From: Phragmites australis
Lineage: Eukaryota > Streptophyta > Magnoliopsida > Poales > Poaceae
Length of the DNA: 64,000 nucleotides
Direction: 5' to 3'
Assembly (NCBI RefSeq): GCF_958298935.1
Contig: NC_084940.1
Span: forward strand, 4,804,001-4,868,000
The notes under the pieces are model-generated. The model made no database searches and was not told the origin of the DNA. It saw nothing but the letters and a program-made list of their open reading frames with translations. Below are positions 2,501 to 47,300 of this stretch, in pieces (positions within the stretch are counted from its first letter, which is position 1; every line of letters begins with the position of its first letter). The position numbers and the translations under genes are program-made.

Positions 2501-4200
2501 GCTCCCCCTTGATGAATGCATAGGTTCATTGTAGCATATTTTCTCCCTTTTTCATTTATTCAAGATTCTTTATGTATAGCATATTTTCTCCTTCTTTGGC
2601 AATGCAAACATCAAGAACAAAAGCCACATGCAATGCATGACCATGCAATTCTAATAAGCTTTCACAAGTATACCATAAAGCATTTGCAAGAGCTAGACAC
2701 TTCAGAGGGCTATATAAAGAATGGAATGTGGAGCTCCCAATTGCACAAATGCTCGAAAAAGATACATTTACACAAGAATATGAAGCTACACAAGCTAAAC
2801 TGGAGAATTATTGGCTTATTTAGGTTCACATAGCCCAATCATATTAAATGAGATCACCACTTCAATCTTAAACTAATCAAACAAGTATTCAGGATAGAAG
2901 GCTTCGCAAACTCTCTCATATGAAATCAAGACTTAGTTAGATCAAGTGATTAAAATAGATTTGATCATTTTGGCACATATTTCATTATTATTCTTTTTTA
3001 TTCTCAAGTTATCTCTTATCCACGCGACTGGGTACGGCAAACTACATCTAAGCCCCTTATGTGAGTTTTGGATAATTGATGACAAGCGATTATTGGAGTA
3101 ACAAAGTTTAATGAGTTTATGAATAGATATTAGTCCTAAAAAAAGTTAAAAAATGCTAGAGACCCTCAAAAAGGAAAAGAGAAACTGCATATGGATACTC
3201 AATAGATTTAAATTCTTTTAATTTGAATTTGAATAGGTATGTCATACTATCAAGAGAGATACGTATAGATTGTCTTGAGGATGTCTCGGTGCTCAAAGTA
3301 CCGATTTAAACTAAAGATGAGAGACACAAATCACCCCACGAACACCGAGAATCTCTAAGTTGTTTTCTGTATTCGGATATTTCGGGTGCAATCCAAAACT
3401 TCCGGGTTGCCAACCTTCGGATGGGGCTCCGGGAAGGTGCGTTCGGTCTGGTTTTTCAAACCAACCTGGAGGTTTCGGGTTATACTCGGAAGTTCCGAGT
3501 AGCTGGAACCTCCGCATTAATTCCGGACTGGGGTTCTTGGGTGCTTTTCTAGTCTGGACCCTGAAGTTCCGAATGGGTTCTGAACTTCCAGATTCTAGTG
3601 ATCTTAATCTGGAACTTCCAGATGGAATTCCGGGTTAGGATCCTCTGTGCTGAGTTCTCGTGTCAACCCGAAAGTTCTAGGTTATACCTAGAAAGCTGTG
3701 TAACGGCTAGTTTTTTAAGGTTGAGTTTAAATACCCCTCACCCCCTTCATTCATTTGTTGCTGACCTACTACGAGATAAGAACACTAAGCTATTTGATAG
3801 CTCTCCCCACTCCCTTAGACTTCAATTCTTATAAGGATTTGAGAGTTGAGTTGAGAGATTAAGATTGAGTGCTAGTGAGCTTTACTTCCACCTTTAAGTA
3901 CTTGAGTTCTTCATTAAGCTAATCATTCCCGCATTTGTTACTTTTAGAGCTCCTAGACAGCTAGACATCGCTTGTGAGCAACTAAGTTTATGATGTACCG
4001 CAAGATTATTTGTGAACCCACTATTTTCCCTTTCCCTCTCTTTCACTTTCTTCTCCATCCTCTTTGTCCTGGAGCTCGTGTAGAGTTGGCCCCTTACATG
4101 AGAGCTCGTTCTTCATTCTCCTCTTTTGTCTTCTCCTTATGTGAAAAAAATATATGACAATGGCTAAGGCTATTGTTATATGCCCTAAAGAGCTAACAAT
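2501..4200. mobile_element. Decayed LTR-retrotransposon sequence, non-coding
   Basis: 2,501-3,055 is AT-rich sequence next to the polypurine tract and has no recognisable domain. From about 3,058 a segment beginning TGTGAGTTTTGGATAATTGA looks like the start of a plus-oriented copia-type LTR and runs to about 4,150. None of the short open frames here resembles a known protein. Boundaries and family are tentative. Confidence 0.35.
3365..3690. repeat. GGAACTTCC-type palindromic module array
   Basis: About ten variants of the near-palindrome (C)GGAAcTTCC(GG) occur in roughly 320 bp. The same module recurs at 51,655-51,835 inside the long gypsy LTR. It is a degenerate LTR-type subrepeat and creates spurious ORFs on both strands. 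Confidence 0.5.
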
Positions 4201-4254
4201 TTCTGTTCATTAGAGATACTGCTGCTGCTCTTGGTTGGCATGTTTTTTAAGCGT

Positions 4255-4385
4255 TAGCTTCGAAGTATTGGATTGCCCTGCTCGTTTTGCAAGTTCAAGG
4301 ACTGTGTATATTGAATGTTTTATTTTAACTGCAAAGAACTTTACAATTTGTGCAAACTTAATTGCAGAGAACTTTACAATTGGAT
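4255..4385 (+). repeat. Segment duplicated from the region upstream of the intact F-box gene
   Basis: This stretch matches 13,840-13,930 over several blocks (for example GATTGCCCTGCT and GCA-AGAACTT-ACA). The latter lies just upstream of the intact F-box gene. It fits a tandemly duplicated cluster in which this copy was the upstream flank of a lost F-box gene to its left. The sequence is non-coding. Confidence 0.5.
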
Positions 4386-4540
4386 CCTTACAAATATAGG
4401 ATTCGATATCTTTAGCTCCAAGATACAGCTAGAAACATTCAAAAGTAGCAGAAGAATGAACAGCAGGGCATTTAGGGCGAAGTTTGGGTTGGTTCGGACA
4501 AATATGCAATTTTATCCTTGTGAAAGAAAAATTCATTCAG

Positions 4541-4582
4541 TAGCTAGATGTTACCAATAGTGTAGCTAGATGTTACCAATAG
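4541..4582 (+). repeat. Two tandem copies of a 20-22 bp unit
   Basis: TAGCTAGATGTTACCAATAG is repeated twice back to back. It ends 20 bases before the left edge of the large palindrome, so it may mark the rearrangement boundary. Confidence 0.8.
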
Positions 4583-4601
4583 TCCTAGACCACACCTAGA
4601 A

Positions 4602-6128
4602 CATGGGCTTGTTTGCTTATACACACCCACACCAACGATCAAGATTGCCAACCCTGCAACTGGTGAATGTCTGCATCTTCAGAAACCTATAAAGAGTTTG
4701 AAGGATGACCGCTTCTCTTTCTACATATTTGAATTTCACCCAGCCACAAAAGAATACAAGGTTATGCACTTTTTTCATGACCACGACACCTATAACGAAG
4801 GCAGATTCAATGTCATTCAAGTATACACACTTGGTAATGAGAAATGAAAAGATGTTGTTACTTCAAAAGCTCTAAGCTTGAACTGTGTGAAAAACTCCGG
4901 AGTAGTCATTGTTGATGAAACAATGTATTGGCTAAACGAAGACATGGGGACTACTTGGCAGCATGTTGTTATGTCCTTTGATCTTGGTGTAGAAAGTTTT
5001 GCACAGATACAGCTTCCAGAAGTTGACCTTGAAGATTGCGCGTTTGGTGGTCCTCGTCATTATTGGATCACTGAGATAGATGGGAAGGTATGTGTATCAA
5101 CTGCTCAAAGCATCAGTCATTTGGACAGAGTGTTTCTTGGTAAGCTGCAGATCTGGACACTAAATAAAAAGGTAGACCAAAGGTGGAGCCAGAAGTACAG
5201 TATTCAGCTCTCATCACTTTTCATTCGAGGACTGCATTTTGTTCATGGGGATAAGATTATGATTCAAGGTCGTGATAGTAACTTGTATTCTTATAAGTTG
5301 CTTCGAAAGAACTTTGAGATTGAATTGAGTAAGATGGTGAAGCTGTTGGATTTGAGTCCCCGCGGAGAGGGTGACATGCAATTCCATATTTGTGTTAAGT
5401 CACCTGTGCCTTTAGATGTATATGCAAAGGCTGCTATATTGCATAGGCCAAAGCGACAGGAGGGATGGAAATTGAAGAAGTGGAAGGCGTGGGAGCATGA
5501 GTTTACCAGGATAGAGAAATTGTGGAGCAGCATCCATCAATTGGAGCATAAAATGCTGGTATATTTGCTAAAGTGTCATTGCCCTTAACAAATATCTGTT
5601 ATTCTTGAAGACTTTACAAATTGCTAAGTTGCCATTTTATAGGCACATCAGCAATCAAGATTGTTAACCTTGCAACTGGTGAATTTCTACATCTTGATAA
5701 ACCTGTAAAGAATTTGAGGGGTGATCACTTCTCTTTCTACAGCTTTGGATTTTACCCTGTCAGAAAAGAATACAAGGTTACACACTTTTTTGGTGGGCTC
5801 GAACCTATACTCAAGGCACCGTTAGTGTCATTCAAGTTTACACACTTGGTAGTGAAAAATGGAGAGATGTGAGAACTCTGGAAGATCTAAGCTTGAGTTG
5901 TGTGAAAAATTCTGGAGTAGTTATTATTGATGGAACAATGTATTGGCTAACTGAAGACACTGGAGCTAGCTGGAAGCATGCAGTTATCTCCTTTGATCTA
6001 AGCGAAGAAACTTTTGTACGGATACAATTGCCAGCAACTTCACTTGGGAGTTCTGATCGTCGTCGTTACTGGATCACAGAGACAGACGGGAAGGTCTGTA
6101 TAGCGACGGACAAACGAATAGACTCGAG
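4602..6128 (+). pseudogene. F-box pseudogene fragments (left palindrome arm)
   Basis: This is an inverted copy of the pseudogene on the right. 4,602-5,558 encodes the F-box-associated (FBA) part of one gene, without its F-box. The intact paralogue's LCSCNGLLCLY region is cut at the left edge, and a TGA at 4,845-4,847 replaces a conserved Trp codon. A donor (CTG|GTATAT, 5,558/5,559) and acceptor (TATAG|GCACATC, 5,642/5,643) follow. Then a second, out-of-frame F-box fragment (5,643-6,128) starts mid-gene at the IKIVNLATGEFLHL region, carries an internal frameshift, and ends at a donor-like GAG|GTATAG. It resembles 6,275-7,801 in mirror image. It has no start region and is not expected to give a functional protein. 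Confidence 0.85.
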
Positions 6129-7801
6129 GTATAGTGTGCTGTCATTTAATATCCAGTATTATATATGTGTCACTGTAGTATGTCAAATTGACAATTTAAC
6201 ATAATACTTTGTCAATTTAACATACTACATTGACACATATATAATACTGGATATTAAATGACAGCACACTATACCTCGAGTCTATTCGTTTGTCCGTCGC
6301 TATACAGACCTTCCCGTCTGTCTCTGTGATCCAGTAATGACGACGATCAGAACTCCCAAGTGAAGTTGCTGGCAATTATATCCGTGCAAAAGTTTATTCG
6401 CTTAGATCAAAGGAGATAACTGCATGCTTCCAGCTAGCTCCGGTGTCTTCAGTTAGCCAATACATTGTTCCATCAATAATAACTACTCCAGAATTTTTCA
6501 CACAACTCAAGCTTAGATCTTCCGGAGTTCTCACATCTCTTCATTTTTCACTACCAAGTGTGTAAACTTGAATGACACTAACGGTGCCTTGAGTATTAGG
6601 TTCGAGCCCACAAAAAAGTGTGTAACCTTGTATTCTTTCGTGACAGAGTAAAATGCAAAGCTGTAGAAAGAGAAGTGACCACCCCTCAAATTCTTTACAG
6701 GTTTATCAAGATGTAGAAATTCACCAGTTGCAAGGTTAACAATCTTGATTGCTGATGTGCCTATAAAATGGCAACTTAGCAATTTGTAAAGTCTTCAAGA
6801 ATAACAGATATTTGTTAAGGGCAATGACACTTTAGCAAATATACCAGCATTTTATGCTCCAATTGATGGATGCTGCTCCACAATTTCTCTATTCTGGTAA
6901 ACTCATGCTCCCACGCCTTCCACTTCTTCAATTTCCATCCCTCCTGTCGCTTTGGCCTATGCACTATAGCAGCCTTTGCATATACATCTAAAGGCACAGG
7001 TGACTTAACACAAACATGGAATTGCATGTCACCCTCTCCGCGGGGACTCAAATCCAACAGCTTCACCATCTTACTCAATTCAATCTCAAAGTTCTTTCGA
7101 AGCAACTTATAAGAATACAAGTTACTATCACGACCTTGAATCATAATCTTATCCCCATGAACAAAATGCAGTCCTCGAATGAAAAGTGATGAGAGCTGAA
7201 TACTGTACTTCTGGCTCCACCTTTGGTCTACCTTTTTATTTAGTGTCCAGATCTGCAGCTTACCAAGAAACACTCTGTCCAAATGACTGATGCTTTGAGC
7301 AGTTGATACACATACCTTCCCATCTATCTCAGTGATCCAATAATGACGAGGACCACCAAACGCGCAATCTTCAAGGTCAACTTCTGGAAGCTGTATCTGT
7401 GCAAAACTTTCTACACCAAGATCAAAGGACATAACAACATGCTGCCAAGTAGTCCCCATGTCTCCGTTTAGCCAATACATTGTTTCATCAATAATGACTA
7501 CTCCGGAGTTTTTCATACAGTTCAAGCTTAGAGCTTTTGAAGTAACAACATCTTTTCATTTCTCATTACCAAGTGTGTATACTTGAATGACATTGAATCT
7601 GCCTTCGTTATAGGTGTCGCGGTCATGAAAAAAATACATAACCTTGTATTCTTTTGTGGCTGGGTGAAATCCAAATATGTAGAAAGAGAAGCGGTCATCC
7701 TTCAAACTCTTTATAGGTTTCTGAAGATGCAGACATTCACCAGTTGCAGGGTTGGCAATCTTGATCGTTGGTGTGGGTGTGTATAAGCAAACAAGCCCAT
7801 G
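4602..7801. repeat. Large near-perfect palindrome: 1,591-bp inverted arms, 18-bp loop
   Basis: The left arm 4,602-6,192 and right arm 6,211-7,801 are reverse complements. All paired positions sum to 12,403: the 236-codon frame 4,878-5,588 (+) pairs with 6,815-7,525 (-), and the arm ends 4,602 and 7,801 pair. Arm lengths are equal, although one pair of compensating 1-bp indels is visible near 5,790/6,610. In the outermost 280 bases I count 4 mismatches (about 1.4%), and the inner F-box fragment is a little more diverged. The loop is 6,193-6,210. Both arms carry the same F-box-derived sequence, including the same nonsense codon. A transcript crossing the centre in either direction would fold into one long duplex. 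Confidence 0.97.
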
Positions 7802-8127
7802 TGCTCATCAGGCCCAATCACAGGCACTGCCCATGTTGATGGTGACCAGGCTTCATCAAAGAGAATAGCATCACTGGGGTACAGTTTGCCTGAAATCGAC
7901 CCTTGTGGGGAGAAAAGGAGGGTACAGGAGGGTGCATGCTGGAGGTGTGCCGCAGCAAACTGGGATTCTCAGATGATGTTGTGCCACATCTTCCAGACAC
8001 CAATGCACCGCAACAAACAGCTTGCAGGAAGCCTAAAAAATACCTGCTCAATGAGTTCTCTTGGGAGACAGTTCATGATGCATTCCTCGGTTTTTGCCCG
8101 CCTTCTACTGGTTTTCTTAGGAGCCAT
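6275..8127 (-). pseudogene. F-box protein pseudogene, chimeric
   Basis: It reads from ATG at 8,127 with an F-box-like start (EECIMNCLPRELIEQVFFRL...) parallel to the intact neighbour. It is disabled by a TGA at 7,981-7,979 where the neighbour has an Arg in IRDPQF. A deletion removes the equivalent of FLCGSC near 7,801, and a TGA at 7,558-7,556 replaces a Trp. The FBA-domain exon ends at donor 6,845/6,844 in the same place as the intact gene's first coding exon. The next segment (6,760-6,275) is not exon 2 but the middle of another F-box gene, out of frame and frameshifted. It then stops at a donor followed by sequence like the intact gene's third coding-region intron. The 6,211-7,801 part is mirrored by the left arm. 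Only the 5' part (7,802-8,127) is unique. Confidence 0.88.
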
Positions 8128-8800
8128 ACTAAGCACAATCTATGCTGTCAAGGAAAATATCCTTCTGCAAACAGATCTCACCAAACGAGTACTGCTTAGA
8201 AGATTGACTTAAACAAATAGTACTGCATACAGAGTAACAGACTGAGACTAAAAAAAATCTGCAGGCAAGTAACATGGAATCGATGAAAGGTTAACTCACT
8301 TGTAAGCTTCAGCATTTTGGCTAACTGAAAAAAACACAACAGGTCATCTCGCGCGGTCTAAATTACTCCTTCTCAACTGTTATCTCGCGCAGTCTAAATT
8401 GCGACTACAGATTTCCTAAAAAAAATTATATGACTACAGAAACTTTCAATCACTCTCAATGACAAAAAAAAAAAAAAAAAAACATCACGCAGACAAAACT
8501 TCTGTTCTAGCATCAGCTTCTCTACTTCCCCTCTCTCATGTGCCAAAAAAGTACCGTATAATTCATGCACAACAGGTACGCATCGCACGATCGCCTCAAC
8601 CGTCGAATTCCTACATCTAGGAAATAACTGCAAGTCCGCCAAACCCTAGCCGCCATTACGTGAGGAAGGCAAGAAGCGAGCAAAAGGAAGCGCAGATTCC
8701 GGACGGGGAGAAGAGGAGATCGAGGAGGGACTCACGGGCGTGATCAGACCAACTCCGCCGTCGCCATGCTCTCGCTGTCCCCCGGCGTGGCGATCGCAGT
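8128..8800 (-). other. 5' leader of the F-box pseudogene, with short upstream ORF
   Basis: On the minus strand a 5' UTR exon ends at donor 8,736/8,735 (GTGAGT) and an acceptor (TTTGCAG|AAGGATA, 8,168-8,165/8,164) rejoins 37 bases before the ATG. The UTR exon contains an 8-codon uORF, MATAELV-stop, at 8,767-8,744. The intact paralogue has the same arrangement with MAAVAEFI-stop. This shows the pseudogene arose from a normally organised gene, not from a processed copy. A short direct repeat, ATCTCGCGC-GTCTAAATT, lies at about 8,346-8,400 inside the intron. Confidence 0.6.
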
Positions 8801-8879
8801 TCGGCTCGGGATTTTTTTTCCTTCTTTTTTGGGAGATGAGCTCGGGAGGCTTTTAGCGAGGAAGACACAAAAGCCAACC

Positions 8880-10006
8880 TAGCCCAACAGCATGGTCACG
8901 AGCCCGAGGCCCAATAACGAAGTAGAGCGGCTCTGTGTTTTTGAATACTTATTTTCCTATTATAGAGATATTATAAGATAAAATCTAAAAACTGCATATG
9001 CATTTTAAGTCTTATGGTATTCACATATATTTTATTTTTAAAAGTATATAAAATTATTTACAAGTTTGAACCAATTTGTTTTTCTAAATTTTGCTTGCAG
9101 CAAAATTATTCATAAATTGTTCTAATTTTTTATTGAAAATATGTAGCAGCAAGATCTGATATTTTCTTTGAATGGTTCTAATTTATTCACAAAATTTGTT
9201 GAACACCCAATCTGAGTTATCTTAACTTGTTTCTTAAATTACTCACGGATCTATTCTAATCTACTTACAATTGTTTACATAACTACATTTATGCAAACGA
9301 ACAAATGGATTATTTATTAAAAATTTCCTTTGTTTCTGCCACACATTAAAGTTGTCACAGATAAGTGTTGCAAATCTAGATGTAAAAAAATCTAAAAATA
9401 GAATAAATGCTTATATTTAAATATATTTTTTTACAAAAAATATGTATACATGCCATAAATCTAAAATTATTTTTAGATGTGTCTAATTCATTACTAAATC
9501 GTGCAACTCTGGTTGAGTATAAAATTATTTTTTTTTTTAAAAAAGACTTTGGTAGATCTTCACCATAACAATTAGGAAGTGCATCAAATACTGCAGCGAG
9601 TAACTAAAACAACGGCAGTCTGGAATAAGTAGGAAATACAGATTCACATAAAGCTACTCGCTGGAAATCTGAAGCACCTCGAAAATGATATCGGCACCTC
9701 TGCTTGTGATTTAGGCTTTGTTTCAGGCATTGCCATCTTTTGAACATACAAAAGACATTCTGAATTCCTGATAGCCGACTCTAGCACAGAATATTCGAAG
9801 CACAGGCAGAATAGTGCAGGACATATTCGAAAGAAGTTAAAACATTTCAGTTTCAGGTACATGGTGCATTGGTTCAGATCAAACGGTTGACCAAACTCCT
9901 CCCTGCAGCTATGCAAAATTCTTTAAGAATCCACGCGACTCCCGAACAGGCCTAGCAGACAAGAATAACATGACTAAGTAGCTCTCCAGTCATCTTATCA
10001 CCATTA
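8880..10006. other. AT-rich intergenic DNA and probable 3' UTR
   Basis: 8,900-9,600 is AT-rich with no recognisable gene. About 9,640-10,006 lies directly downstream of the intact F-box gene's stop codon on the minus strand and is its likely 3' UTR. The open frame there has no family resemblance. Confidence 0.5.
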
Positions 10007-12654
10007 TCATTGTGGACTATTTTCAGCATTTGAACTTGAACCACCCTGCGAAATGTGAATAAGGATTAAACATAAGTCTTTACTACTTTCATCACAAGAA
10101 AGGGAACATTTAGAAGCTCCATTAGAAAATGAAAAGGAAGTCCCAACATTGTAACTGTTACTGATCTATGGTGATGTTGATTTTAAGTTCAAAACCCAAC
10201 CCAGAGAAATATAAATGAAAAGAAAAGTCTGCAATCGATGGTGAACCTTACTAATAAATCCACTTTAGCTACTCATACTTTTTTAAAAGAACTCCATGTA
10301 CATCACATCTATACAAAGGTGTATGGATAGACAAATATCTCGTTCCCTACTGACATACTATATTAATAAAAGAATAGTTTCTTCTGCGCAGACTGAAAAT
10401 ACTAGTTACAATTAAAAGTGACATAAGATTTTTAAGTGCAGCTATTAAACTCAATGAACAATTAAAATCAAATGAATTCAGTAACTATACAGCATTGCTA
10501 AAACAAAACTGTACAGTTAGCGCCAAAAAAATGGGGAAGAAAAAACAAAGTACAGGCATTTGTATAAACTAACAAATGACATGGAAAATAATCACAATTT
10601 AATGGGGAGTGTCATTCATTTGTGTCAATCGATATAACACAGCTAATTTTCTTATTTGTCTACTCTAGACAAGTTAATTTGCTCATTTATTACGGAAATG
10701 TGATCACAACGGAAACGAGTAACAAGAACTAGCAAGCCATAGCAGAAAACATGTCTAACTTAACATAGGCATAAGGTTTTACCTGGTCTGGTATATAACT
10801 ATCTAGTACACTAAAGATCTTTTCCTTTGCCTGAGTTGTGGCCTGCAGGCAGGTAAACATTTCAATTAAATGGCAGCATAAATAACACTTGGTAGTAAAT
10901 GTCAGCACACTGTACCTCAATTTTATATCTCAGATTATCGACACGGATCCGCAACTTCTCCATGACCTGCTTGTGCTCCACCCAATTAAGCCGCCGAGAG
11001 GACGTTGGCTGGACATTTGTTACAACACTAATTACAGAGTAATCAAAACAATAATATGCCTTTGTACTTCGAATAGACGAATAAATACCAAACTTTTGAA
11101 CAAATGTCAAAACTGTGGTTGCTTCCATTTGATCATTTCAATTTTCAATAGATAAGTACCTGATCTGGACCATCTGGTGCACACTGCAACATTTGGATGA
11201 TTTTCATACCCACATGCCGCGTCTCATCTGGTAGCCAATGCAGCACCTGATTGATTTTCGTGGCCATCAAATGTGCAAGTTCCTAAAAGTTAAACATAGG
11301 AATTTGTCAATTCTTAAACAATAATCAATATTCATTTAAGCTAATGATTGTTTAGGCCACATACAGACATGTCCTGCTCCAATTGATGGATGGTGCTACA
11401 CAAATCCTCTAAATTGCGAAGCTCACGCTCCCACACCTCCCACTTCTTCAATTCCCAGCCTTCCCACCGTTTTGGTCTCCGCACAAGACCAACCTTCTTG
11501 TATGCATCTAATCGTACAAGTGACTTCACACATATGTAGGATTGCATGTTCTGCGGTTTGTGGGGGCTGAAATCCAACAGCTTCGCCCTACTACTCAATT
11601 TAATCTCATAGTTCTTGCCAAACAACTCATATGAATATAGATTACAATCACGACTATGCATCATGATCTTATCCCTGTGAACGAAATGTGGTCCTGGAAT
11701 GTAATTTGGTGCATGCTGAATAATGCACTTCTGGCTCCACCTTTGCTCTACTTTGTTGTCAAGTGTCCAGATCCGCAGCTCACCAGCAAGCATTCTGGGG
11801 AGATGACGGTAGACTTGAGCAGTCGCAACACATACCTTCCTGTCTATCTCTGTGATCCAATACCGACGACAACCAGAACCCCCAAGTGCAACTGCTGGAA
11901 GTTGTATCCGTGTAAAAGTTTCTTTGCTGAGATCAAAGGAGATAACTGAATGCTTCCAGCTAGCTCCAATGTCTTCGGTTAGCCAACACATTGCTCCATC
12001 AACATTGACTACTCCAGAATTTCTCATAGAGAACAAGTTTAAAGCTTCTGGAGTAGCTACATCTTTCCAATTCTCACTACCAAGTGTGTAAACTTGAATG
12101 GCATTGAACGTACCTCGAGAATAGTTTTGGTCCTCACCAATAAAGTGTGTAACCTTGTATTCTTTTGTTACTGGGTGAAATCCGAAGCTGTAGAAAGAGA
12201 AGTGATCGCCCTTCAAATTCTTTATAGGTTTATCAAGATGCAGGCATTCACCAGTTGCAAAGTTAGCAATCTTGATTGTTGATGTCTTTGTGTATAAGCA
12301 AAGAAGCCCATTGCATGAACCGCAAAGGAAATCATCAGGCCCAATCACTGGCACAGCCCTTGTCGACTGTGACCAAGCTTCATCAAAGATGATAGCATCA
12401 CTAGGGTAGAGCTTCCTCTCAACAGATTCTTGAGGGAAGAATAGGAGTGCACAACGAGGTGCATGCTGGAGTTGTGCTGTGACGAACTGGGGGTCACGGA
12501 TGAAGTTGTACCATATCTTGCAGACACCGATGCACCTCAACAAAGTGCTCACTGGAAGCCCCAAAAATATTTGCTCAATGAGGTCACTTGGGAGGGAGTT
12601 TATGATGCATTCCTCCGTCCTTTGCTTTTTTGATTTAGGGTTTTCAGAGAACAT
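10007..12654 (-). CDS. F-box protein with FBA domain and helical C-terminal tail (5 coding exons)
   Basis: This is a likely substrate-recognition subunit of an SCF ubiquitin ligase. Coding exons on the minus strand are 12,654-11,365, 11,282-11,160, 11,008-10,916, 10,842-10,783 and 10,045-10,007. All junctions are GT/AG and phase 0, giving 534 residues. The F-box is at residues 19-60 (LPSDLIEQIF...), which should bind SKP1. The FBA region spans about 108-330 (CGSCNGLLCLY, KIANFATGECLHL, FSFYSFGFHPVTKEYKV). The reading frame runs on past the exon 1 donor (ATGTCT|GTATGT) to a stop at 11,341, so a single-exon reading would give 437 residues. The downstream exons are supported by exact phase, consensus sites and coding character, and add a charged helical tail ending GGSSSNAENSPQ. 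The ATG is the one in the same position as the pseudogene's. Target unknown. Confidence 0.85.
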
Positions 12655-13745: not shown

Positions 13746-13978
13746 GGACTTCTGCGTTTTCTGTTTCTGTTTGTTAGAGATAACGCTCTCCTCTTGGTTC
13801 GCGTACATTTCAAGACTCAACTCCGCTGCACGTTCGGAGGCATTAGATTGCCCTGCTTGATTTGCATGTTTACGGACAATGTATTCTGAAATGTTTGCTT
13901 CCTATGTGCAGAGAACTTCACATTCCGTGCAGTGCATGCTTTCGATCGGAAATAAATGTGAAACTTTGGTTGAACTTA

Positions 13979-14221
13979 GGGGCACGTTTGTTTCACGTCT
14001 AAAGTTAACCAAGTATAATTTGCTATAAAATATAACTAAAAGATTCTTAGCCACAAGTGTAGTAAAATTAATCAAAAAAAATTAAGCATATGACGTGTAG
14101 ACCAATAGGCAAACAAAACAAGACTTGTCACGGTTGTGACAATCAACCAAATGGCTATATAAAAATTTATAGCGTGACTAACCTTAGACGTGGCAAATTT
14201 AAGCACAAAACAAACACGCCC
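13979..14221. mobile_element. Tourist-like (PIF/Harbinger) MITE with TTA target duplication
   Basis: The 243-bp element starts GGGGCACGTTTGTTT and ends AAACAAACACGCCC, giving imperfect terminal inverted repeats. It is flanked by TTA on both sides (13,976-13,978 and 14,222-14,224), the preferred target of PIF/Harbinger elements. It has no ORF. It lies between the two intact F-box genes. Confidence 0.78.
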
Positions 14222-14392
14222 TTAATATACAAACGTTGAATAAAGAAACAAAAGCAACAGGAGCATTGAAAACAGCTGAACCTTTGACAGATCTTAACAA
14301 TAGCCGACTGCTTAAAAGTCTACTCTAAAAATTACACCAGGATTTATGTATGAGGCACATATGCTGCCAGACCTTGTACAATCAAACTAATG

Positions 14393-15646
14393 TCAAGCAA
14401 CTGGAGGAGCAAGAGGCCGAGGCGGTGCACAAACAATGGCTGCCCCTGCATATACACTCAAAGGAATAAGTGTCTCCTTGTAGAAGTAGGACTGCGTCTC
14501 ATAGAATCTGTAGGCTCCTATGTCTAAAAGCTTCACCTCCTCTCTGTGCTCAATCTGCACGTTCTTGCCAGCCAAATCATGGTACCACGCATTACCGTCC
14601 CGATCCTGTAGTATGATCCTCTCCCTGTGGATGAAGCATGGCTGAGGTACATACCGGTGTACAGATGGTGATTGGATGCTATATTTCAGGAACCACTTGT
14701 GCTCAGTCTGACTTTCAAGAGCCCAAATATCCATCCTACCAGAAAGCTCTGTGTTGTAGCGGCGCCACCTTGGTATATGGCTTTGGTATGGTATAGTCAC
14801 GATACATACCTTCCCGTCTATCTCAGTTATATAGCAAGCGATTTTGGGGGTGGCACAAGAGGCTATCTCTTTTACCTCAAATGGTGGAAGTTGAATCGAT
14901 GCAAATGTTTCTTCCCTGAGATCAAATGATGCGACTGACATGCCACAGCCTGTTTCTTCATCTTCTGTTAGCCAATACATTGACCCATCCACGGTAACAA
15001 CTCCAAGATTCACCATGCAGCATGGTCTCGGCACTCTTATATCTCTCCATTTGTCTTCGCCAAGGGTGTACACTTGAATGGTGTTGAAATGGAAAGGTTG
15101 TCCTGATTTATAGCGCTGGGGCTCACGGAGAAAGTGCACAAGCTTGTATTCTCTACTCGTCGGGTGAAATCCAAAGCTGTATAGATAGTGGAAGTCGTGC
15201 AACATTATCCCGTCAGGTTTCAAGAGATGCAAGCATTGACCTGTTGCAGGATTGGCTATCTTCAGTGTGTATGTCTTGTAGAAGCAAAGCAGACCATTGC
15301 ATGATGCAAAGAGGTGATCGTCAGGGTCCATATGCAATGCTGCCCATGTCCATGGAGACCATTTCTCATCAATGATCGTTGCACGGCATTTGAGAGTCTT
15401 GGAACAGAGGGATGCCGGTAAATCCACTTTAGGCAAGTAAAGGAGGAGGTGTTTAGGTGCACGATAGGCATGTTCCATGATGAAGTGGGGGTCGCTGATC
15501 ATGTTGCGCCATTGCTTGCAGACTCTGCGCAGTTTAAGAAGAGAGCTTATGGGAAGCCTGAGAAGTATCTCCTCAATGAAATCTGGTGGGATCCTTGTGT
15601 CAGGCTTCTCCACATAATGCACCACTGTGTGTTCTTCGCTTGCCAT
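14393..15646 (-). CDS. F-box protein with FBA domain, single coding exon
   Basis: This is a 417-residue F-box protein, probably an SCF E3 adaptor, diverged from the neighbour at 10,007-12,654 but collinear with it. The F-box is near residues 18-60 (RIPPDFIEEILLRLPISSLL...VCKQWRNMISDPHF). The FBA region starts near 100 (FASCNGLLCFYKTY, KIANPATGQCLHL) and continues through YSFGFHPTSREYKLVHF, TVDGSMYWLTED and TEIDGKVCIV. The frame is open upstream to 15,724, but a strong acceptor (TTTCTGCAG|G at 15,685/15,684) lies inside that extension, so ATG 15,646 (MASEEH) is chosen. No C-terminal splice donor like the neighbour's was seen, and the protein ends IVCAPPRPLAPPVA. Target unknown. Confidence 0.85.
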   Translation of the reverse strand: MASEEHTVVHYVEKPDTRIPPDFIEEILLRLPISSLLKLRRVCKQWRNMISDPHFIMEHAYRAPKHLLLYLPKVDLPASLCSKTLKCRATIIDEKWSPWTWAALHMDPDDHLFASCNGLLCFYKTYTLKIANPATGQCLHLLKPDGIMLHDFHYLYSFGFHPTSREYKLVHFLREPQRYKSGQPFHFNTIQVYTLGEDKWRDIRVPRPCCMVNLGVVTVDGSMYWLTEDEETGCGMSVASFDLREETFASIQLPPFEVKEIASCATPKIACYITEIDGKVCIVTIPYQSHIPRWRRYNTELSGRMDIWALESQTEHKWFLKYSIQSPSVHRYVPQPCFIHRERIILQDRDGNAWYHDLAGKNVQIEHREEVKLLDIGAYRFYETQSYFYKETLIPLSVYAGAAIVCAPPRPLAPPVA

Positions 15647-17460
15647 TACAAACACATTTCCACCAAAAACAAGCCTGCAAATCCCTGCAGAAAGATAAGG
15701 ATTGCAATGCGAAAGCGATACCATAAAAATAGATGTTCAGGGAGATATGAGCACCAACTATCAATGGAGTCATTCTACAGAACCATGGAATCACTTTGGA
15801 CTCTTAACAAAAGGAAGAAGGAAATCATTTCTCTATGAGTGTGTTTATCTCGCTGAACAAGTGAATATAGATTGACAGATGGTTACTAGTAGTTAACCCC
15901 CCACCTCCAGCAACTAAAAAGAAGACAACCATATTACATTATCGAACATTGGCCATTCCGCTGAATAAGTGTTTGGAGTTTTCATGGTACTGCTGTTCAC
16001 AGTAAATGTACTTCAGCCTTCAAAATTCCTTTCAAGGGAACTACTACCTCAATTCTCTTTCACATGTCTTTTTGGGCACGACACAGTCTCCAACACATGC
16101 CTTTGCCTATTACTTTTTCATCTACTGGTAAATGGTAGTAAAAGTTGTAACACCGTAGCGATATGGATGGACTTTTGATGATAAATCAATTAGCATAATT
16201 TTTGTGAATAAAAAAATCTGTATATTTAGTCAACGTTCTGAAATTCTGAGTACACACATTTCTGAATGACATATAAAGGAGAATGGAAGGAATAATTTTG
16301 GTGACTGCAAATATATGCCTGGTGTCTAGCAAATAGCCCAGAGTTTCTAACAATTTACAATTTTAGTGAGTTAGTAGTTAGTATAACTGTGCAAGTTTTG
16401 CAGGTAAAACCATTAGGAATTCATAGTATTCCACAGAGCACAGCCTGTAGGTGCAATGAATGTGTGGCAAAATTGCTTTCTCTAGTAGATACAGCAGCAA
16501 CTGAAACAAACCACATAAAACTGTAATAGTATGACTAAGAAGCGGATGAGATGTACTGGCATCATCTAACTTCTTTTATACTGCATTTGGATCATGTTCT
16601 GGCTGTGGCTTTCTCATCATATGCAAACTTTCAATATCAACTGTTCTAAATAAGTCTGTCAAATGAAAACATTTTGTCGAATCTATTTAAGGACTTGAGC
16701 CTTCAATTATGCCATAGATGACCTCAAGACGAATGTGCACATGTTCAATTAAGAATTCATAAGTTCTAGACATAACCCTCGAGCCTGAAATTTCTGCAGC
16801 ACATCTAACAAATCACAAGAACCCAAATCATTTCTTTCTCCCATAAAACTTATGTTCCTCTCCAGTTTTGCACAGACTACCAGATTGCACATCTTAGTGC
16901 TTCCATTCCATTTTCCCTTTTTTTTGTGACTACGGCATTTCAACACCGAGCTTGGAATTAAGCACACAGATAACATCTCACCTCCCGGATTTCTCTGAAG
17001 CTAAACATGAAGCCATAAAGCGACAGCCCTAAATGCCTGAGCGAAAATAACTAGAAACCCACACAGATCAGCTTTTCCCATGTTGCCAAATACTACGAAT
17101 CATCAACACATCACTAATCCGATGCTAAGTTAGTAACAGCAATCCGCAGTCCCTCCAGTTCTCACAATAGCAATTAGCAAATCCTAATCTGGCTTACGAC
17201 ACCCAACACGGCGTCGAAAGCAGGATTTCACGACGGAGCAGACCGCGCGTGCAAATCAATCGATTCACAGACGCGGAACGGAGAGGCAAGGGTCGCCGAA
17301 ACCAGGAGAAAACTTACAGGGAGAGAAATCGTCTTGGGCGGGAGAAGCCGCCGGCGGCGGCTCCCTTCCGCCGTGCGTGCAGGATGCGGCGGGTGGCGTT
17401 ATCCTCTTACTGACCAACGACCGATCACTTCCCCACCCCCTACCGCCAACAAGCTCAGAA
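15647..17460 (-). promoter_or_regulatory. 5' UTR intron and promoter-proximal exon of the second F-box gene
   Basis: A consensus donor (CCCT|GTAAGTT at 17,318/17,317) in a GC-rich segment pairs with the acceptor at 15,685/15,684, giving a 5' UTR intron of about 1.63 kb with no other gene in it. The first exon starts somewhere near 17,460. Nothing else was recognised in 15,850-17,300. Confidence 0.5.
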
Positions 17461-21405: not shown

Positions 21406-21948
21406 ATTGGCTAAGAAGCGGAACTGCGGTAGGGCCCCAACCCTCCAGATCCGCTCATGTATGTGTTGATGATCCCTCGCTATGCTCCTTTGTTAGTATC
21501 ACACATATATAAAAGCAAATTTTATAGAACACTATTTAGAAAAATTTCTGTAAGACTATATCCCGTAATATAATGATAAGACTGAAGAGAAAAAAAATAA
21601 ACACATATCATCATTAAAAAAAGATTATTTTATAAAACAAAATACTAGTATATAATTTACTTCCCACGCATACTAGAATAGTTTGGATCGATAGGGCCAA
21701 ATAATTGGCGTTCCTTGTCTCCGTGCCTCGCAAACCATGCACACATTATTGGGCGCCACGCCCCAAAGCTGCAGAAATCATTGGGCGCCAAGAACCAAAG
21801 CATGTGGGATGTCTCATGGCGATCGGACGTCCGGATGCGCGCGGTCTCGCTGATCCGACGGCGGCTGCAGCGCCTAACTGAAAAGGGCAGCGTAGTAACG
21901 CCGGCGACTACCCGAACAAGCTAGAGGTGCCAACACAAGCAAGTCGGC

Positions 21949-21955
21949 TATAAAT
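21949..21955 (+). promoter_or_regulatory. TATA box of the RING-H2 gene
   Basis: TATAAAT lies in the context CGGCTATAAATACACTGCC, 126 bases upstream of the start codon. A transcription start near 21,980 and a 5' UTR of about 100 bases would follow. Confidence 0.75.
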
Positions 21956-22080
21956 ACACTGCCCCCTTCCGCTCGTCTCGCTGCATCCATTTCCCTCCAC
22001 TCCTCGCGTCGACCGCCTCGGAAAAAACGGAAATTACAAACGAGTCCACGGATCGAAATCCCCGAATCCACACCACCGCG

Positions 22081-22551
22081 ATGGGGATCTCGAGCATGCC
22101 GGCGCCGAGGGACAGCCTGATGGCGTACCTGCTCTACAACACGGTGGTCTCCATCGCCGCGCTCGCGGGCCTGGTGCGGGCCGCGCTGGTTTTCCTCGAC
22201 CTCCAGGCCGCAGCGCCGCCGTCGCTGCGGTCGGGGGAGGGCGCGGACGGCGGGGACCGGCTTGCGGCGCCGGGGCCGGGGCCGGGGCTGGCGGAGAGGT
22301 TCAGGAGCGGCTTCACCCCGGCGCGGTTCGTGCAGACGACGCGCGACGCGGCGGCGGACTGCCGCGTGTGCCTGGCGCGGTTCGAGCCGGAGGCCGTGGT
22401 GAACCGGCTCCCCTGCGGCCACCTCTTCCACCGCGGCTGCCTCGAGACCTGGCTCCTCTACGACCGCGCCACCTGCCCGCTCTGCCGCGCCCGCCTCCTC
22501 CCTGCCGCCGATGAGCCCCCGCCGGCGCTCCGCCTCGTGGAATTCGAGTGA
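22081..22551 (+). CDS. XERICO-like RING-H2 finger protein (E3 ubiquitin ligase)
   Basis: This is a 156-residue single-exon protein. The N-terminus, MGISSMPAPRDSLMAYLLYN, matches the XERICO-type family (MG-S--PAP), and a hydrophobic segment at residues 12-39 should anchor it in a membrane. A Gly/Pro/Ala-rich linker follows at 45-72. The RING-H2 finger has Cys94, Cys97, Cys112, His114, His117, Cys120, Cys132 and Cys135 (C-X2-C-X14-C-X-H-X2-H-X2-C-X11-C-X2-C), with the usual Trp and Pro at 124 and 133. All zinc ligands are present, so it should be an active E3. XERICO relatives promote abscisic-acid accumulation and drought responses; that role here is by family only. Length matches the family (about 150-165 residues). 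The gene is GC-rich, as grass single-exon genes often are, and has a TATA box at 21,949. Confidence 0.92.
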   Translation: MGISSMPAPRDSLMAYLLYNTVVSIAALAGLVRAALVFLDLQAAAPPSLRSGEGADGGDRLAAPGPGPGLAERFRSGFTPARFVQTTRDAAADCRVCLARFEPEAVVNRLPCGHLFHRGCLETWLLYDRATCPLCRARLLPAADEPPPALRLVEFE

Positions 22552-41247: not shown

Positions 41248-43533
41248 TATCGGAGTATTGAATAAGGAGGCGTCCTAGCTAATGAGCCTCATGAGGGGTA
41301 TGACGACGGACAGAGGATATTTTCTGAACCCTAGCCCATCGTGCGATCAGATCCAAGCTTGCACGACCAGCATAAGACTTGTGCGACCAGCCTCCTTACG
41401 ATATTATAAGATCCCAGAACTAGCTCTTACTAGTTGTAGGGTCGGTCCTTACCTAACCCATATAATCACATTTATTGCTATCTACTCAAGTCTTTTTCTT
41501 CCCCAGGCACTCCATCCAGTGAACAAAGTCATGGCCGATGTGGTTAGACACTGTTCCGTCTTATAGCATTAAATGCTATGGAACAGAGCCTTACATGCCG
41601 GTGCAGTACCACATGGTTGACGAGATAGAGTCTGCAGAATGATCAGGCAAGTGGACGGTTTTGTAGGTAGACTTGCGGGGCGCAGGGACATGATGGCTTG
41701 ACAGACGATCTTACGACGCATGATGATGGGACGGGTCGGCGGACAGGGAAGGTAGGTGCGGAGGCATTCCACGGTTAAGATAGACACTCAAAGCTCTCAG
41801 GGCAAGTTGGGCTCACCCGATTCTCTAGGATATGATCTAAGAGTTGAATATCTAGCTATGTATGAGTCTGCTAATCGAGGCCCACTTATAAGTTCTCTCT
41901 CTCTGGTATATAAAGAGAGGAGGACTCAGTTTGTAACGGAGAAAGGGTAACTAATTCACAAGTACTCATAATAAAATACACAAAACGTAGGGCTGTTATT
42001 CTTTGGGAGGGCTGAACCTGGATAATCCTAATGTTTTTGAGTTCAACACATACACCGACAAACGCACACCTTCAGCGTTGTTCACGTGCCCTTCGATGGG
42101 TACACATCAGAATCATTGTCAGGGATTAGCCCTCGACAGTTGGCGCGCTATGTAGGGAGCGTGTTTTTGCATTTCGGTAGGTGTTAGAGATCATATTGGG
42201 CTACCCATGGCTGGATCCACGGTAACCACTGAGTCCCGTTCTGAGGACCCCAGTCACCGCGAGGTATTCTTCATGGGGTACGACCTTGATGAGCCCAGTG
42301 TGCTCTAGGAATGGGACACCGAACCAGAGTCTGAATGCTCTGAGGCTCAACAAGAGGTTTGCATGATAGTACATGCAACCGGGGGGGGGCAGTGGAGGCT
42401 CCCGTGTTTTGGGTGTTGGTGATGATCCCTAGGCCATGCGCCCAGAGGGGAACCAGACTGGAGCCGAACACGGGAACGCTTCGACACAGTCCTAACCACG
42501 GGAGCTGCTGCAGAGGATACGGTCTTTGGCGGCCTCATCACCAAGGCCGTCATGCCACACAAATGCCGGGGGCTCCCCCTTCGTGATGTGTTGCCACTCC
42601 ATGCCCGACAGCTCGATTATGAGGCCATGACGCCTGTACAAAATTCGCAGATCATGCGAATGCTTCTTAGCCACCCGCTAGTATCAGTACCAGAGGATTC
42701 GCCAGTGGCGCCATGGTTGCGTGACCTCGCCCTCCTGATTGAGACCGCCTGACGCCAAACTGCGGCGGTAAACACCACGTCCGTCGCTAGGATTAGTGAG
42801 GGTCATGATCGCTAAGAATTATGGTAGGCACCACAATAGGAAATATCTCGTCCTTCCTCAGTAACAGGGAGCGCTCAGAGTCCGCCGTCGCGTCGAGATA
42901 GCCAACCCTCTAACTTGTGCGACTCCCTATGCCAACGCGACCTTTGCAGCGTTATTCAGAGCCAGGTGGGCATCTGAGCGTAGGAGGACCATGCCTAATA
43001 AGAGCATGAAAAGGGCAAACAACCCTACCACTCACCTCCCCCACGTAGGTAGACATTAGATTCCTTCATTCTGTCCCCTGGACTGCGTGACCGTTGCCTC
43101 TCTCCATGAGCACTTATCATCACCTATCAGTGGGTATCTCCCCGTTACGGGACGGTGTGCAACGCCCTATCAGCCCAGCTACAAGAGGTGCGCTTACCGG
43201 ACAAGTTCCGACCGGTCCTAGCAGAAAAATATAATGGCTTGATCAACCTCGAAGAGTTTCTACAAATCTACACCACCATGATACAGGCCACGGGGGGCTA
43301 TGGGAAAGTCATGGCCAAATACTTCTCGACCGCCTTGATCGGTTCAGCTCGGCCCTGGCTTATGAACCTTCCCTACGAGTTAGTTCACTCATAGGAGGAT
43401 TTGTACGACCAATTTATCGCTAAGTTCCAGGGGACCTATGCCAGACCCGGGGTTGAGGACGACCTGTACCAGATCAGGAAGCGACAAGGTGAGTCATTGC
43501 AAGACTTCATCCGACGCTTCACTAAGCAATAAA
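41248..43533 (+). mobile_element. Ty3/gypsy fragment: 5' LTR, leader and gag, plus strand
   Basis: The LTR is 41,248-42,138 (TATCGG...CTCGACA, 891 bp). It is followed at once by GTTGGCGCGCTATGTAGGGA, the leader/primer-site text usual for this gypsy group. Gag begins about 42,208 and is broken. Its conserved core is at 43,155-43,533 (FRPVLAEKYNGLINLEEFL, YFSTALIGSARPWLMNLP, a stop, then LYDQFIAKFQGTYARPG and GESLQDFIRRFTKQ). The element is cut off at 43,533 by an inverted related LTR. No pol is present. Confidence 0.75.
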
Positions 43534-44367
43534 ACAACGTTTGCGGTGTTCGTGTGTTTGTGATGAACTCAAGAACACAGGATTTATCCAGGTTCAGGTC
43601 TCCCGAAGGATAACGGCCCTATGTCCTGTGTATTTTATTCTCAGTATTTGTGAACTGGTTATAGATGAGTTTTCTCGAGTCCTCCTCCCCCCTTACAAAC
43701 CGGGTCCTCCTCTCTTTATATACTTACAAGTGGGCCCCGTTTAGCAGACCCATACCTAGCTAGATATTCTACTCTTGGATCATTATTATAGAGAACCGGG
43801 TGAACCCAACTTGCTCTGAGAACTCTGCATACCCATCCCATCCATGGAACACCACCGCACCTGCCTCCCTCGGTCGCCTAACCTGTCCCATCATCGTGCA
43901 CCGCAAGCTTGTCTGCCAAGCCGTCATGTCCCTATGCTCCGTGAGTCTACCTGCAAAATCATCCACTTGCCTGGTTGTTCTGCAGATCTTGTCCCATCTG
44001 TCGCGTGGCGCAAGTTGGTCTGCAACACCCCACCTCGTAGAAATTAATGCTACGGGACGGGGCACTGCCCATCTGCGCCGACCACGATTTTGTTCGCTGG
44101 AGAAGGTGCTTCGAGAAGGAAACCACTTGAGTAGACATCAATTAATACAATTAGACAGGTTAGGTATGGTTGTCTTGTGACCAGCAAGGGCTGGTCGCGG
44201 GATCATATTTATACCGTAAGGAGGCTAGTTGCGCAAGCCTCGCGCTGGTCATGCGAGTCAAGGGATGGTCGTGTGACGGGCCAGGGTTCAGGAAATATCC
44301 CCCGCCTGTTATTGTATCCCTCATAGGGTCTGTTAGCCAGGATGCCTCCTTACTCAATACTCCGACA
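43534..44367 (-). mobile_element. Related gypsy LTR in inverted orientation
   Basis: The reverse complement of this block is collinear with the LTR at 41,248-42,138, starting TGTCGGAGTATTGA at 44,367 and following it for all but its last roughly 80 bases. It is opposite in orientation, so it is not the 3' LTR of the plus-strand fragment. Its right end lies inside the integrase region of the next gypsy element. Its left end joins the plus-strand gag abruptly. It is either a solo LTR or the product of a rearrangement. Confidence 0.75.
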
Positions 44368-44384: not shown

Positions 44385-47300
44385 ACCACAGTCGAAAACT
44401 ATCTTCACAAGAATACCATAAAGACAAATAATTCGGGAGATGTATAGCTCTGCATATTGCTTGGTAGAGTACATGGTTTTGACGAGAAAGAAATGAGCTG
44501 ATTTGGTCAACCAGTCCACGATGACCCAAATCAAATCATCCCCTCAAGAGATGTTAGGTAGTCCAGTAATGAAATTCATACCAATTTCTTCCCACTTCCA
44601 AGAGGAAATTGGTAAGGGTTGGAGCGTACTAGCCGGTTTGAGATGTTCAGCCTTCACTCTTCGGCAAACATCACACTCGATGACATATCTAGTGATCTCT
44701 CGCTTTATGCGAGTCCACCAAAATCTTTGCTTGAGATCTTGATACATTTTGGTGCTCTCAGGATGAATTGACAACAAGGAGTCATGAGCTTCATCCAAAA
44801 ATTTCTTTCTTAGCTCACGAACCTTAGGAACCACTAGACATCTTACGAACCACAAGGTACCTTGATCATCCATGGAAAAATATCTAGCCCCACCCCCCTT
44901 TCTCAATCCTGTCATGGATTTTCTTCACGCCGGCGTATTCTTTTTGTGCTTCCTTAATTTGGTCGAGAAGGGTGGATTTGATCTCCAGATTTGCAAGAGA
45001 TCCCACCGAGACCATCTCGAGTCCAAGTTTTCAAAAGCCAAAAGCACAGAGTCTTTGGGATCAAGGCATCGACAACGACGTTCGCTTTGCCAAGGTGATA
45101 ATGAACCTCCAATTCATAGTCATAATCAATTCCAGCCATCTCCTTTGCCTCATATTGAGGTCGGCTTGAGTGAAGATATATTTCAGGCTCTTGTGATCGG
45201 TATAGATATTGCAAAGTTTCTAAGGAGGTAGTGACGCCAGATTTTTACAGCATGCATAACAGCTGCAAGCTCTAAATTGCGAGTAGGATAATTTTCTTCA
45301 TGGTGCTTCAATTGGCAAGAAGCATAGGCAACAACTCGGCCTTCTTTTATGAGGACACATCCAAGGTCGACGCGGGAAGCATCATAATAGACGTTAAGAC
45401 CCTTGTCCATTTCAGGTTGAGCTAGAACAGAAGCGATCGTGAGTAGATTTTTCAAGGTTTTGAAAAGCGGACTCACATTCATTGGACCACTCAAATGCAT
45501 TTCCTTTCTTCAGCAACTCAGTCATGGGTTTGGAAATCTTGGAGAAATTCACGATGAACTGGCGGTAGTAACCTGCAAGTCCATGAAAACTTCGAATGTC
45601 AGTGACACTCTTGGGTTGAACCCAATTGAGCACATATTGAACCTTGCTAGGGTCAATCATGACAGCATTTTCATAAAGAACATGGCTGAAGAAGACAACT
45701 TCTTTGAGCCTGAACTCGCACTTGCTAAACTTGGCATAGCGACGGTGATCTCAAAGGTGTTCAAGAACAACCCGGAGATGGTCTGTATGTTCTTCTTTAG
45801 TCTTGGAATAGATGAGAATATCATCGATGAAGATCACAATAAACTTGTGGAGTTCTTCCATGAAGACTATATTCATCAAGTACATGAAATATGCCAGTGC
45901 ATTAGTCAAGCCAAAGGACATAACAGTATACTCGTAGAGCCCATATTGAGTAGAGAAAGCTGTCTTTGGAATGTCCTCCGTTCATATTTTTATTTGATGA
46001 TAACCCAACCATAGATCAACCTTGGAAAAGAAATGAGCACTGGTCAATTGATCAAATAAGATGTCAAAGCACGGAAGAGGATATTTATTTTTGATGATGA
46101 CTGCGTTGAGAGGACAATAATCAACACACATCCTCAAAGTGTTATCTTTCTTCTTGACAAGGCATCCCCAAGGTGAGGATCTCGGATGAATGAAACCCTT
46201 GTCAAGCAATTCCTTTAATTGTTTCTTCAACTCCATTAATTCTTTGGGAGGCATCCGATAAGACCTTCTTGAAATCGGGGTCGTTTCAGGTAAAAGCTTA
46301 ATGAAGAATTCTACTTCTCGGTCGGGTGGCATTAGCAATAATTTCTCTGGAAAGACATCGGGGAACTCACAAACCACAGTAATATCCAAGAGATCTGTGG
46401 TTTTGACCATTGTCACAGAGTATAGGTGGGGACCACACTCTCTAATGTGTAGGGGGATCCACACACCACTAGAATTTTTGAGAGAAACTACCCTTTTTGA
46501 GAAATCAATAAGGGCACTATAGTTGGTCAGCCAATTCATTCCCAAGATGACGTCTACTCCTCTAGTATCAATCACGATCAAATTCGTGGAGAACGGAACC
46601 TCTTCAATGAGGATCGTGACCAGAGGGACGACTCGATTGGCTTTTAACTGGGTACCGGGTGCATCGATATGATAGGAAGAGGGTAGGGTCTTGGTGACCA
46701 TAGTGTGACACAAGACGTAACTCTCTTTAATGAAAGAATGAGATGCTCCTGAATCGAAAAGTACAACTACATGGTGAGAATTCACGAGTAGTGTACCAAT
46801 GAGCACGCTATCATCATCTCAAGCTTCTTCGGCAGTGATGTGGTTCACTCGGTCACACTTGGGAACATGCGTAGCCTAGGAAGCTTGCTGGAGGGGTTGC
46901 CCGGGTAGTGGCAGCCTTGGAGCAGTCACCACCGCTCCTAGCTTCGAGAAACGACAATCCTGCGCGAAATGACTGACTCGCCCACAGTTGTAACATGGGT
47001 CTCTGGGGCCACCTGTCACACTCCCTTGAGATCCAGCGGGTCTTGGAGTCTGTCCTTGCAACGAGGAGGACGGACACCGCACCACCCACATTGATCGAGG
47101 AGCAACTGAAGCCGAAATGTGGGATGGTGGAGGGTGATTCTTCGTCCGGGGACGTTAGGAGATCCCACCCACAGAAGGTAGCAGACCCCTCTTGTGCTTC
47201 TTCTCCTCCTGGTGGTTCTTCATCTTGAATTCAACTGTGAGAGAGGTGCTCACTAACTTATTAAAATCGGTAAACTCGTGAGCCGATATACGGTCTTGCA

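Follow-up and report, generated by a model that had tools for sequence, protein, structure and literature searches.

Does a palindrome of F-box sequence that lies beside intact F-box genes serve as a source of regulatory RNA, or is it only the folded remains of a dead gene? The question is raised by a 3.2-kb palindrome in the genome of Phragmites australis, which we analysed within a stretch of 64,000 nucleotides (NC_084940.1, positions 4,804,001 to 4,868,000; hereafter the window, in whose coordinates all positions are given unless contig C12 is named). A sequence-only reading of the window had proposed that the palindrome could be a natural hairpin-siRNA locus, with nearby F-box genes as its targets. 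Our analysis leads to a narrower proposal, to which we give about an even chance of being right: that the locus is a natural hairpin-RNA (hpRNA) source, fed by minus-strand read-through from the upstream region of the very pseudogene from which it arose, and that its main effect falls on the locus itself, with a weaker one on a single neighbouring gene, here called G.

Anatomy and reality of the palindrome

Two arms of 1597 nt, at 4598-6194 on the plus strand and 6209-7805 on the minus strand as delimited by the repeat tool, are 98% identical and have 14 nt between them (6195-6208), so that the locus offers the long, near-perfect inverted repeat with a short spacer that is expected of hpRNA sources. 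Aligned with gaps, the arms agree at 1571 positions and differ by 25 mismatches and 2 one-base gaps; folding the centre in silico leaves 6 nt unpaired as the loop. The sequence-only reading had described 1,591-bp arms pairing base for base around an 18-bp loop. Mirror pairing of 4602-6192 with 6211-7801, whose coordinates sum to 12403, does hold at 1557 of 1591 positions; given the mismatches and gaps, 'base for base' somewhat overstates the pairing, and the arms extend slightly further in both directions, which shortens the loop to 14 nt. The outermost 280 bp contain 4 mismatches (4732, 4767, 4769 and 4783), as that reading had counted. Beyond the left edge (3000-4599), pairing about the same axis amounts to just 20-35 per 100 positions.

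Several trivial origins could be rejected. Chance similarity does not produce a 1.6-kb arm at 98% identity. A foldback transposon or MITE is ruled out because the arm DNA is not dispersed: a genome search that skipped very common words found it only here and in G, apart from weak similarity to a second F-box gene. A known RNA family is likewise ruled out within the 64-kb window, where no Rfam family matched at its gathering score. Fold-back read artefacts have near-identical arms with a tiny loop, and a chimeric long read of this kind, assembled as a palindrome, would give much the same picture. However, the arms carry 27 differences (25 substitutions and 2 gaps), of which 21 can be polarized by G and fall on both arms, the left and right flanks differ in sequence, and a 17-bp deletion marks the right junction. 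Because the arms carry such polarizable differences, we consider an assembly error very improbable; the palindrome is real and represents a young duplication of F-box sequence in inverted orientation.

The donor of the duplication

The anatomy of the palindrome, which had escaped the sequence-only reading although the palindrome itself had not, becomes legible by comparison with G (11341..12654, minus strand), an intact F-box/FBA_3 gene of 437 amino acids and the closest relative found in the genome. The first 110 residues of G match 8127-7798, whereas residues 114-437 match 7804-6824 in a different frame. Therefore, the right edge of the palindrome lies inside a gene, pseudogene A (6815..8127, minus strand; an F-box plus FBA_3-type reading frame with its start codon at 8127), and the right arm consists of the 3' part of A and the sequence downstream of it. 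The right arm runs without a break into the remainder of A (7806-8127); the start codon, the broken F-box and the upstream region (8127 upwards) lie outside the palindrome. Past the end of A, homology to G stops at about 6773 and fragment B follows, a partial, F-box-associated second copy (6296..6758, minus strand) that is 83% identical to G. In the left arm the same arrangement recurs in reverse, with the 3' part of A (about 4603-5630) followed by the mirror of B (about 5645-6107, 84% identical to G) and on towards the loop. A short further match to sequence downstream of the G reading frame adjoins the palindrome centre.

The reading frame of pseudogene A is broken in three places: by an in-frame TGA close to the F-box end, which lies outside the palindrome, by a second TGA within the FBA part, and by a frameshift at 7804/7805. 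As the TGA in the FBA part is common to both arms, A was probably dead before it was folded back; gene conversion between the arms could instead have spread the stop to both and made the arms look younger than they are. At 7801..7809 (minus strand), only 0-3 bp from the outer right end of the palindrome, A differs from G by a 17-bp deletion and one extra base. Gaps are opened only three times in the 1336 columns of the A-G alignment, twice at this scar by our own reading; with so few openings, we estimate by hand a chance of about 1% that an independent indel would fall so close (3 bp or less) to the edge of the palindrome. The right edge is therefore most simply read as the site of a healed break.

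From these features we infer the following course. A tandem F-box pseudogene, A, with fragment B behind it, would have been folded back in place about 1 My ago: a fragment ending at the right edge would have turned back on itself at a short inverted repeat close to 6200, been filled in to a palindrome of double length and been rejoined at both ends in what was presumably a single event, leaving a tail-to-tail inverted duplication with a 14-nt loop.

Surroundings of the locus

A homoeologous empty site was sought on C12 and with the neighbouring RING gene, whose other copies are at best 79% and 76% identical, and was not found, so the state before duplication could not be read. To the left of the palindrome, the stretch 4200-4354 matches 13764-13931, upstream of G, on the same strand at 69%, a slight resemblance that may mark the flank of an old gene unit. 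A dispersed repeat of about 980 bp (3039-4016) also lies on this side; its copies, complete or partial, number in the dozens and are 71-81% identical (40 of 3175 candidates scored).

Elsewhere in the window, an open RING-H2 finger gene, similar to the XERICO type, occupies 21925-22551. The segments 41250-42141 and 43535-44365 match the same C12 sequence in opposite orientations and form a more diverged inverted repeat, possibly a transposon, and a frame with a retroviral-type aspartyl protease (RVP_2) at 45982-46818 is a retroelement fragment.

Age and divergence of the arms

Grasses have a substitution rate of 6.5e-9 per site per year, at which the arm divergence of 1.6% would correspond to a fold-back roughly 1.2 My old. 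With G as outgroup, 21 of the 25 substitutions could be polarized, 15 being derived in the right arm and 6 in the left, with 4 unpolarized. The ungapped list of differences is longer (35, comprising 22 right-derived, 8 left-derived and 5 unpolarized), as ten of its columns, at 5793-5806, represent two one-base indels; omitting these gives the values of 15, 6 and 4. The imbalance of 6 against 15 has a p value of 0.08, and counting the two indels, which are right-derived as judged by eye, makes it 6 against 17 (p=0.035). Within the arms, the B part also holds more differences per length than the A part (24 versus 11 ungapped, over 555 versus 1042 bp), or about 16 versus 11 once the indel pair is counted as two. 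Selection, gene conversion or chance may lie behind both the right-arm excess and the denser B part.

The same substitutions bear on the possibility that the locus is a silenced, methylated repeat, which would yield 24-nt siRNAs only, through the RNA-directed DNA methylation pathway, and have no effect on the mRNA of G. It is common for 24-nt siRNAs to be directed at inverted repeats and at sequence near transposons, and dispersed repeats lie on both sides of this locus. Counted by hand, C-to-T and G-to-A changes make up 7 of the 15 substitutions derived in the right arm and 3 of the 6 derived in the left; this is no clear excess of the methylation type and speaks mildly against the possibility, which we regard as unlikely.

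A possible route for a hairpin transcript

The 800 bp upstream of A (proximal region 8131..8930, minus strand) are colinear with the sequence upstream of G, with an alignment score of 145.4, compared with 84.2 for the best of 92 control alignments (46 windows on both strands; the longer windows that were tried include part of a high-copy repeat). Pseudogene A has thus kept its own upstream region, a candidate promoter and 5' leader, and a minus-strand transcript from this putative promoter region could run into the hairpin. It would pass through A, B, the loop and the left arm, the last of which would supply the antisense strand. The sequence-only reading had held that any read-through RNA would fold into a 1.59-kb duplex, and the prediction agrees: when a minus-strand transcript from 8300 to 4301 is folded in silico, mirror positions of the two arms are paired at 1563 of 1591 sites (no shuffled control was folded). 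We propose that such a duplex would be cut by Dicer-like enzymes to siRNAs, which would act mainly on the locus itself and more weakly on the intact neighbour, G.

The palindrome may instead be inert, that is, a real fold-back of a dead gene that has no RNA role, either because no transcript crosses the loop or because transcripts end early. The motif AATAAA is a poly(A) signal, and between the stop of A and the loop there are one AATAAA (6398) and one AATGAA variant (6545). The former (6393..6398, minus strand), in the right-arm copy of B, was created by a right-arm change at 6396 and is a possible premature poly(A) signal; together with the variant it could end a transcript before the loop. 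Further upstream, a high-copy repeat of about 490 bp (8975..9465; 40 of 265 candidates scored) lies about 850 bp upstream of A and could weaken or silence its putative promoter, and the sole TATA-like match within 1 kb upstream of A lies inside this repeat. The right-arm copy of B has three stops where the left arm keeps a sense codon, as neutral decay predicts, and the donor was probably a pseudogene before duplication. The retained upstream region of A stands against inertness, as do comparable loci in rice and soybean for which small RNAs or dsRNA have been reported (see below). We hold inertness to be a serious possibility, albeit a less probable one than an hpRNA source that is read from the upstream region of A.

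Targets within reach

If the locus does make an hpRNA, G is its likeliest target. That intact relatives lie 3-8 kb away, as the sequence-only reading had noted, is correct: G and a second F-box gene (14393..15724, minus strand; intact, 443 amino acids, 45% identical to G) are about 3.5-7.9 kb from the right edge of the palindrome. The match at 38 of 39 positions between the arm (5,961-5,999) and G (11,930-11,968) was also reproduced, and the longest exact match between the G region and the arm is 27 nt. Over their length, the arms are 75-84% identical to G, and the divergence of G and A is old (dS 0.38, dN 0.26, over 323 codons).

We scored overlapping 21-mers of each arm by a targeting rule that measures complementarity and not cleavage. 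On the reading frame of G, 392 of 1571 left-arm 21-mers scored at most 4, including 15 exact matches, as did 359 of 1571 right-arm 21-mers, including 12 exact. The second gene was reached at this score by 57 of 1571 left-arm and 48 right-arm 21-mers, none exact, and is at best a weak possible target. One shuffle of each arm gave 0 target-grade 21-mers on either gene, and over the longer stretch 10007-12654 one right-arm shuffle gave 2 chance target matches. In terms of complementarity alone, G is thus a trans target with adequate matches, albeit, at such divergence, a possible but distant one.

Few other sequences come into question. In the whole genome, a DNA search with the arm returned this locus, G (76%), a 300-bp weak match to the second gene and nothing else, so no large F-box target family is seen at the DNA level. 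When the G region served as query (40 of 147 candidates scored), the palindrome came up as well, together with the stretch 4200-4354 and a dispersed repeat at about 13980-14228. A protein search (31 matches) gave the second gene, followed by a broken C12 copy of that gene, and all remaining relatives were far more distant. Relatives in viral contigs were sought and none was found, a result that is uninformative. The C12 copy (C12:4722403-4724785) is 93% identical to the second gene and about 1.1 kb of its upstream sequence (14378-16815); across the 60 kb of C12 that were compared its flanks show no colinear match, and it is perhaps a dispersed duplication. Target-grade matches to it were found for 15 of 1571 left-arm 21-mers. 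Regulation of 'F-box genes' therefore appears to narrow to one gene, perhaps two.

A stronger form of the proposal would be a working hairpin-siRNA locus that tunes G, its last close intact relative, and whose left arm is kept complementary to G by selection. The smaller number of derived changes in the left arm (6, against 15 in the right) and its slightly larger number of target-grade 21-mers (392 against 359) point this way, and the right-arm excess is the sole hint, a faint one, that the arm that would make the antisense strand is being kept. We think this improbable; if true, it would be a natural case between the death of a gene and the birth of a regulatory RNA that uses the dead gene's own promoter.

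The hpRNA proposal as a whole thus stands in part. A young inverted F-box duplication, its duplex fold, the adjoining relative with target-grade matches and the retained donor upstream region argue for it; the distance of the arms from their target, the lack of a family in reach, the probable death of the donor and the derived AATAAA argue against it. Judged from the DNA, the palindrome appears well placed to make a hairpin RNA of a kind already known in plants. If it is transcribed, it would be a young natural example of a dead tandem duplicate becoming a regulatory hairpin, and would allow a clean test of whether the fold-back of a pseudogene alone starts RNA silencing and how much target mismatch is tolerated, because donor, likely target and upstream region all lie within about 8 kb and one close target was found in the genome. 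Without transcription, what remains is a fold-back duplication in good preservation, complete with its breakpoint scar.

Comparison with known systems

No report of a similar F-box palindrome was found in the titles and abstract openings searched, several of which were the top of a longer list, and one may exist in print. Related systems have been described. The birth of MIRNA and hpRNA genes by inverted duplication of a protein-coding gene (the Allen model) was proposed for loci such as MIR163, for which computational evidence suggests that the promoter of the origin gene was duplicated as well (PMC1790633), and this route to MIRNA genes is also described in PMC3237417. The locus studied here shares the inverted duplication of a protein-coding gene; unlike the MIR163 type, it has a near-perfect stem of 1.6 kb, which would place it at an early stage, if at all, and arms that are distant from the intact gene. 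In maize, Mu killer is likewise a long inverted duplication of gene sequence, with a proposed hairpin RNA of about 4 kb, but its target is a transposon and silencing has been reported; the same source, PMC3440606, disputes a simple read-through hairpin model for it. As Mu killer need not act in this way, caution is due about a read-through hairpin here.

Closer parallels come from rice and soybean. In rice, the presence or absence of long inverted repeats tracks small-RNA levels (PMC7649420), and for two pairs of inverted pseudogenes both hairpins (predicted) and small RNAs have been described (PMC2708354); both resemble our palindrome, with the difference that the rice loci come with small-RNA data. 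At the soybean I locus, GmIRCHS joins a promoter-bearing 5' gene part to a tail-to-tail inverted repeat of a chalcone synthase (CHS) pseudogene (PMC13051633). The resemblance extends to the tail-to-tail pseudogene repeat (1,087 bp there, 1,597 bp here), the very short spacer (78 bp and 14 bp, respectively), the 5' part of a gene that stands ahead of the repeat together with its upstream region, and the presence of a gene of the same family near by. The two loci differ in that the 5' part comes from a DnaJ gene in GmIRCHS, whereas in P. australis it is pseudogene A's own. Moreover, for GmIRCHS dsRNA was detected and deletions restore seed-coat pigment, whereas the P. australis locus is known from sequence alone and matches its likeliest target at 75-84%.
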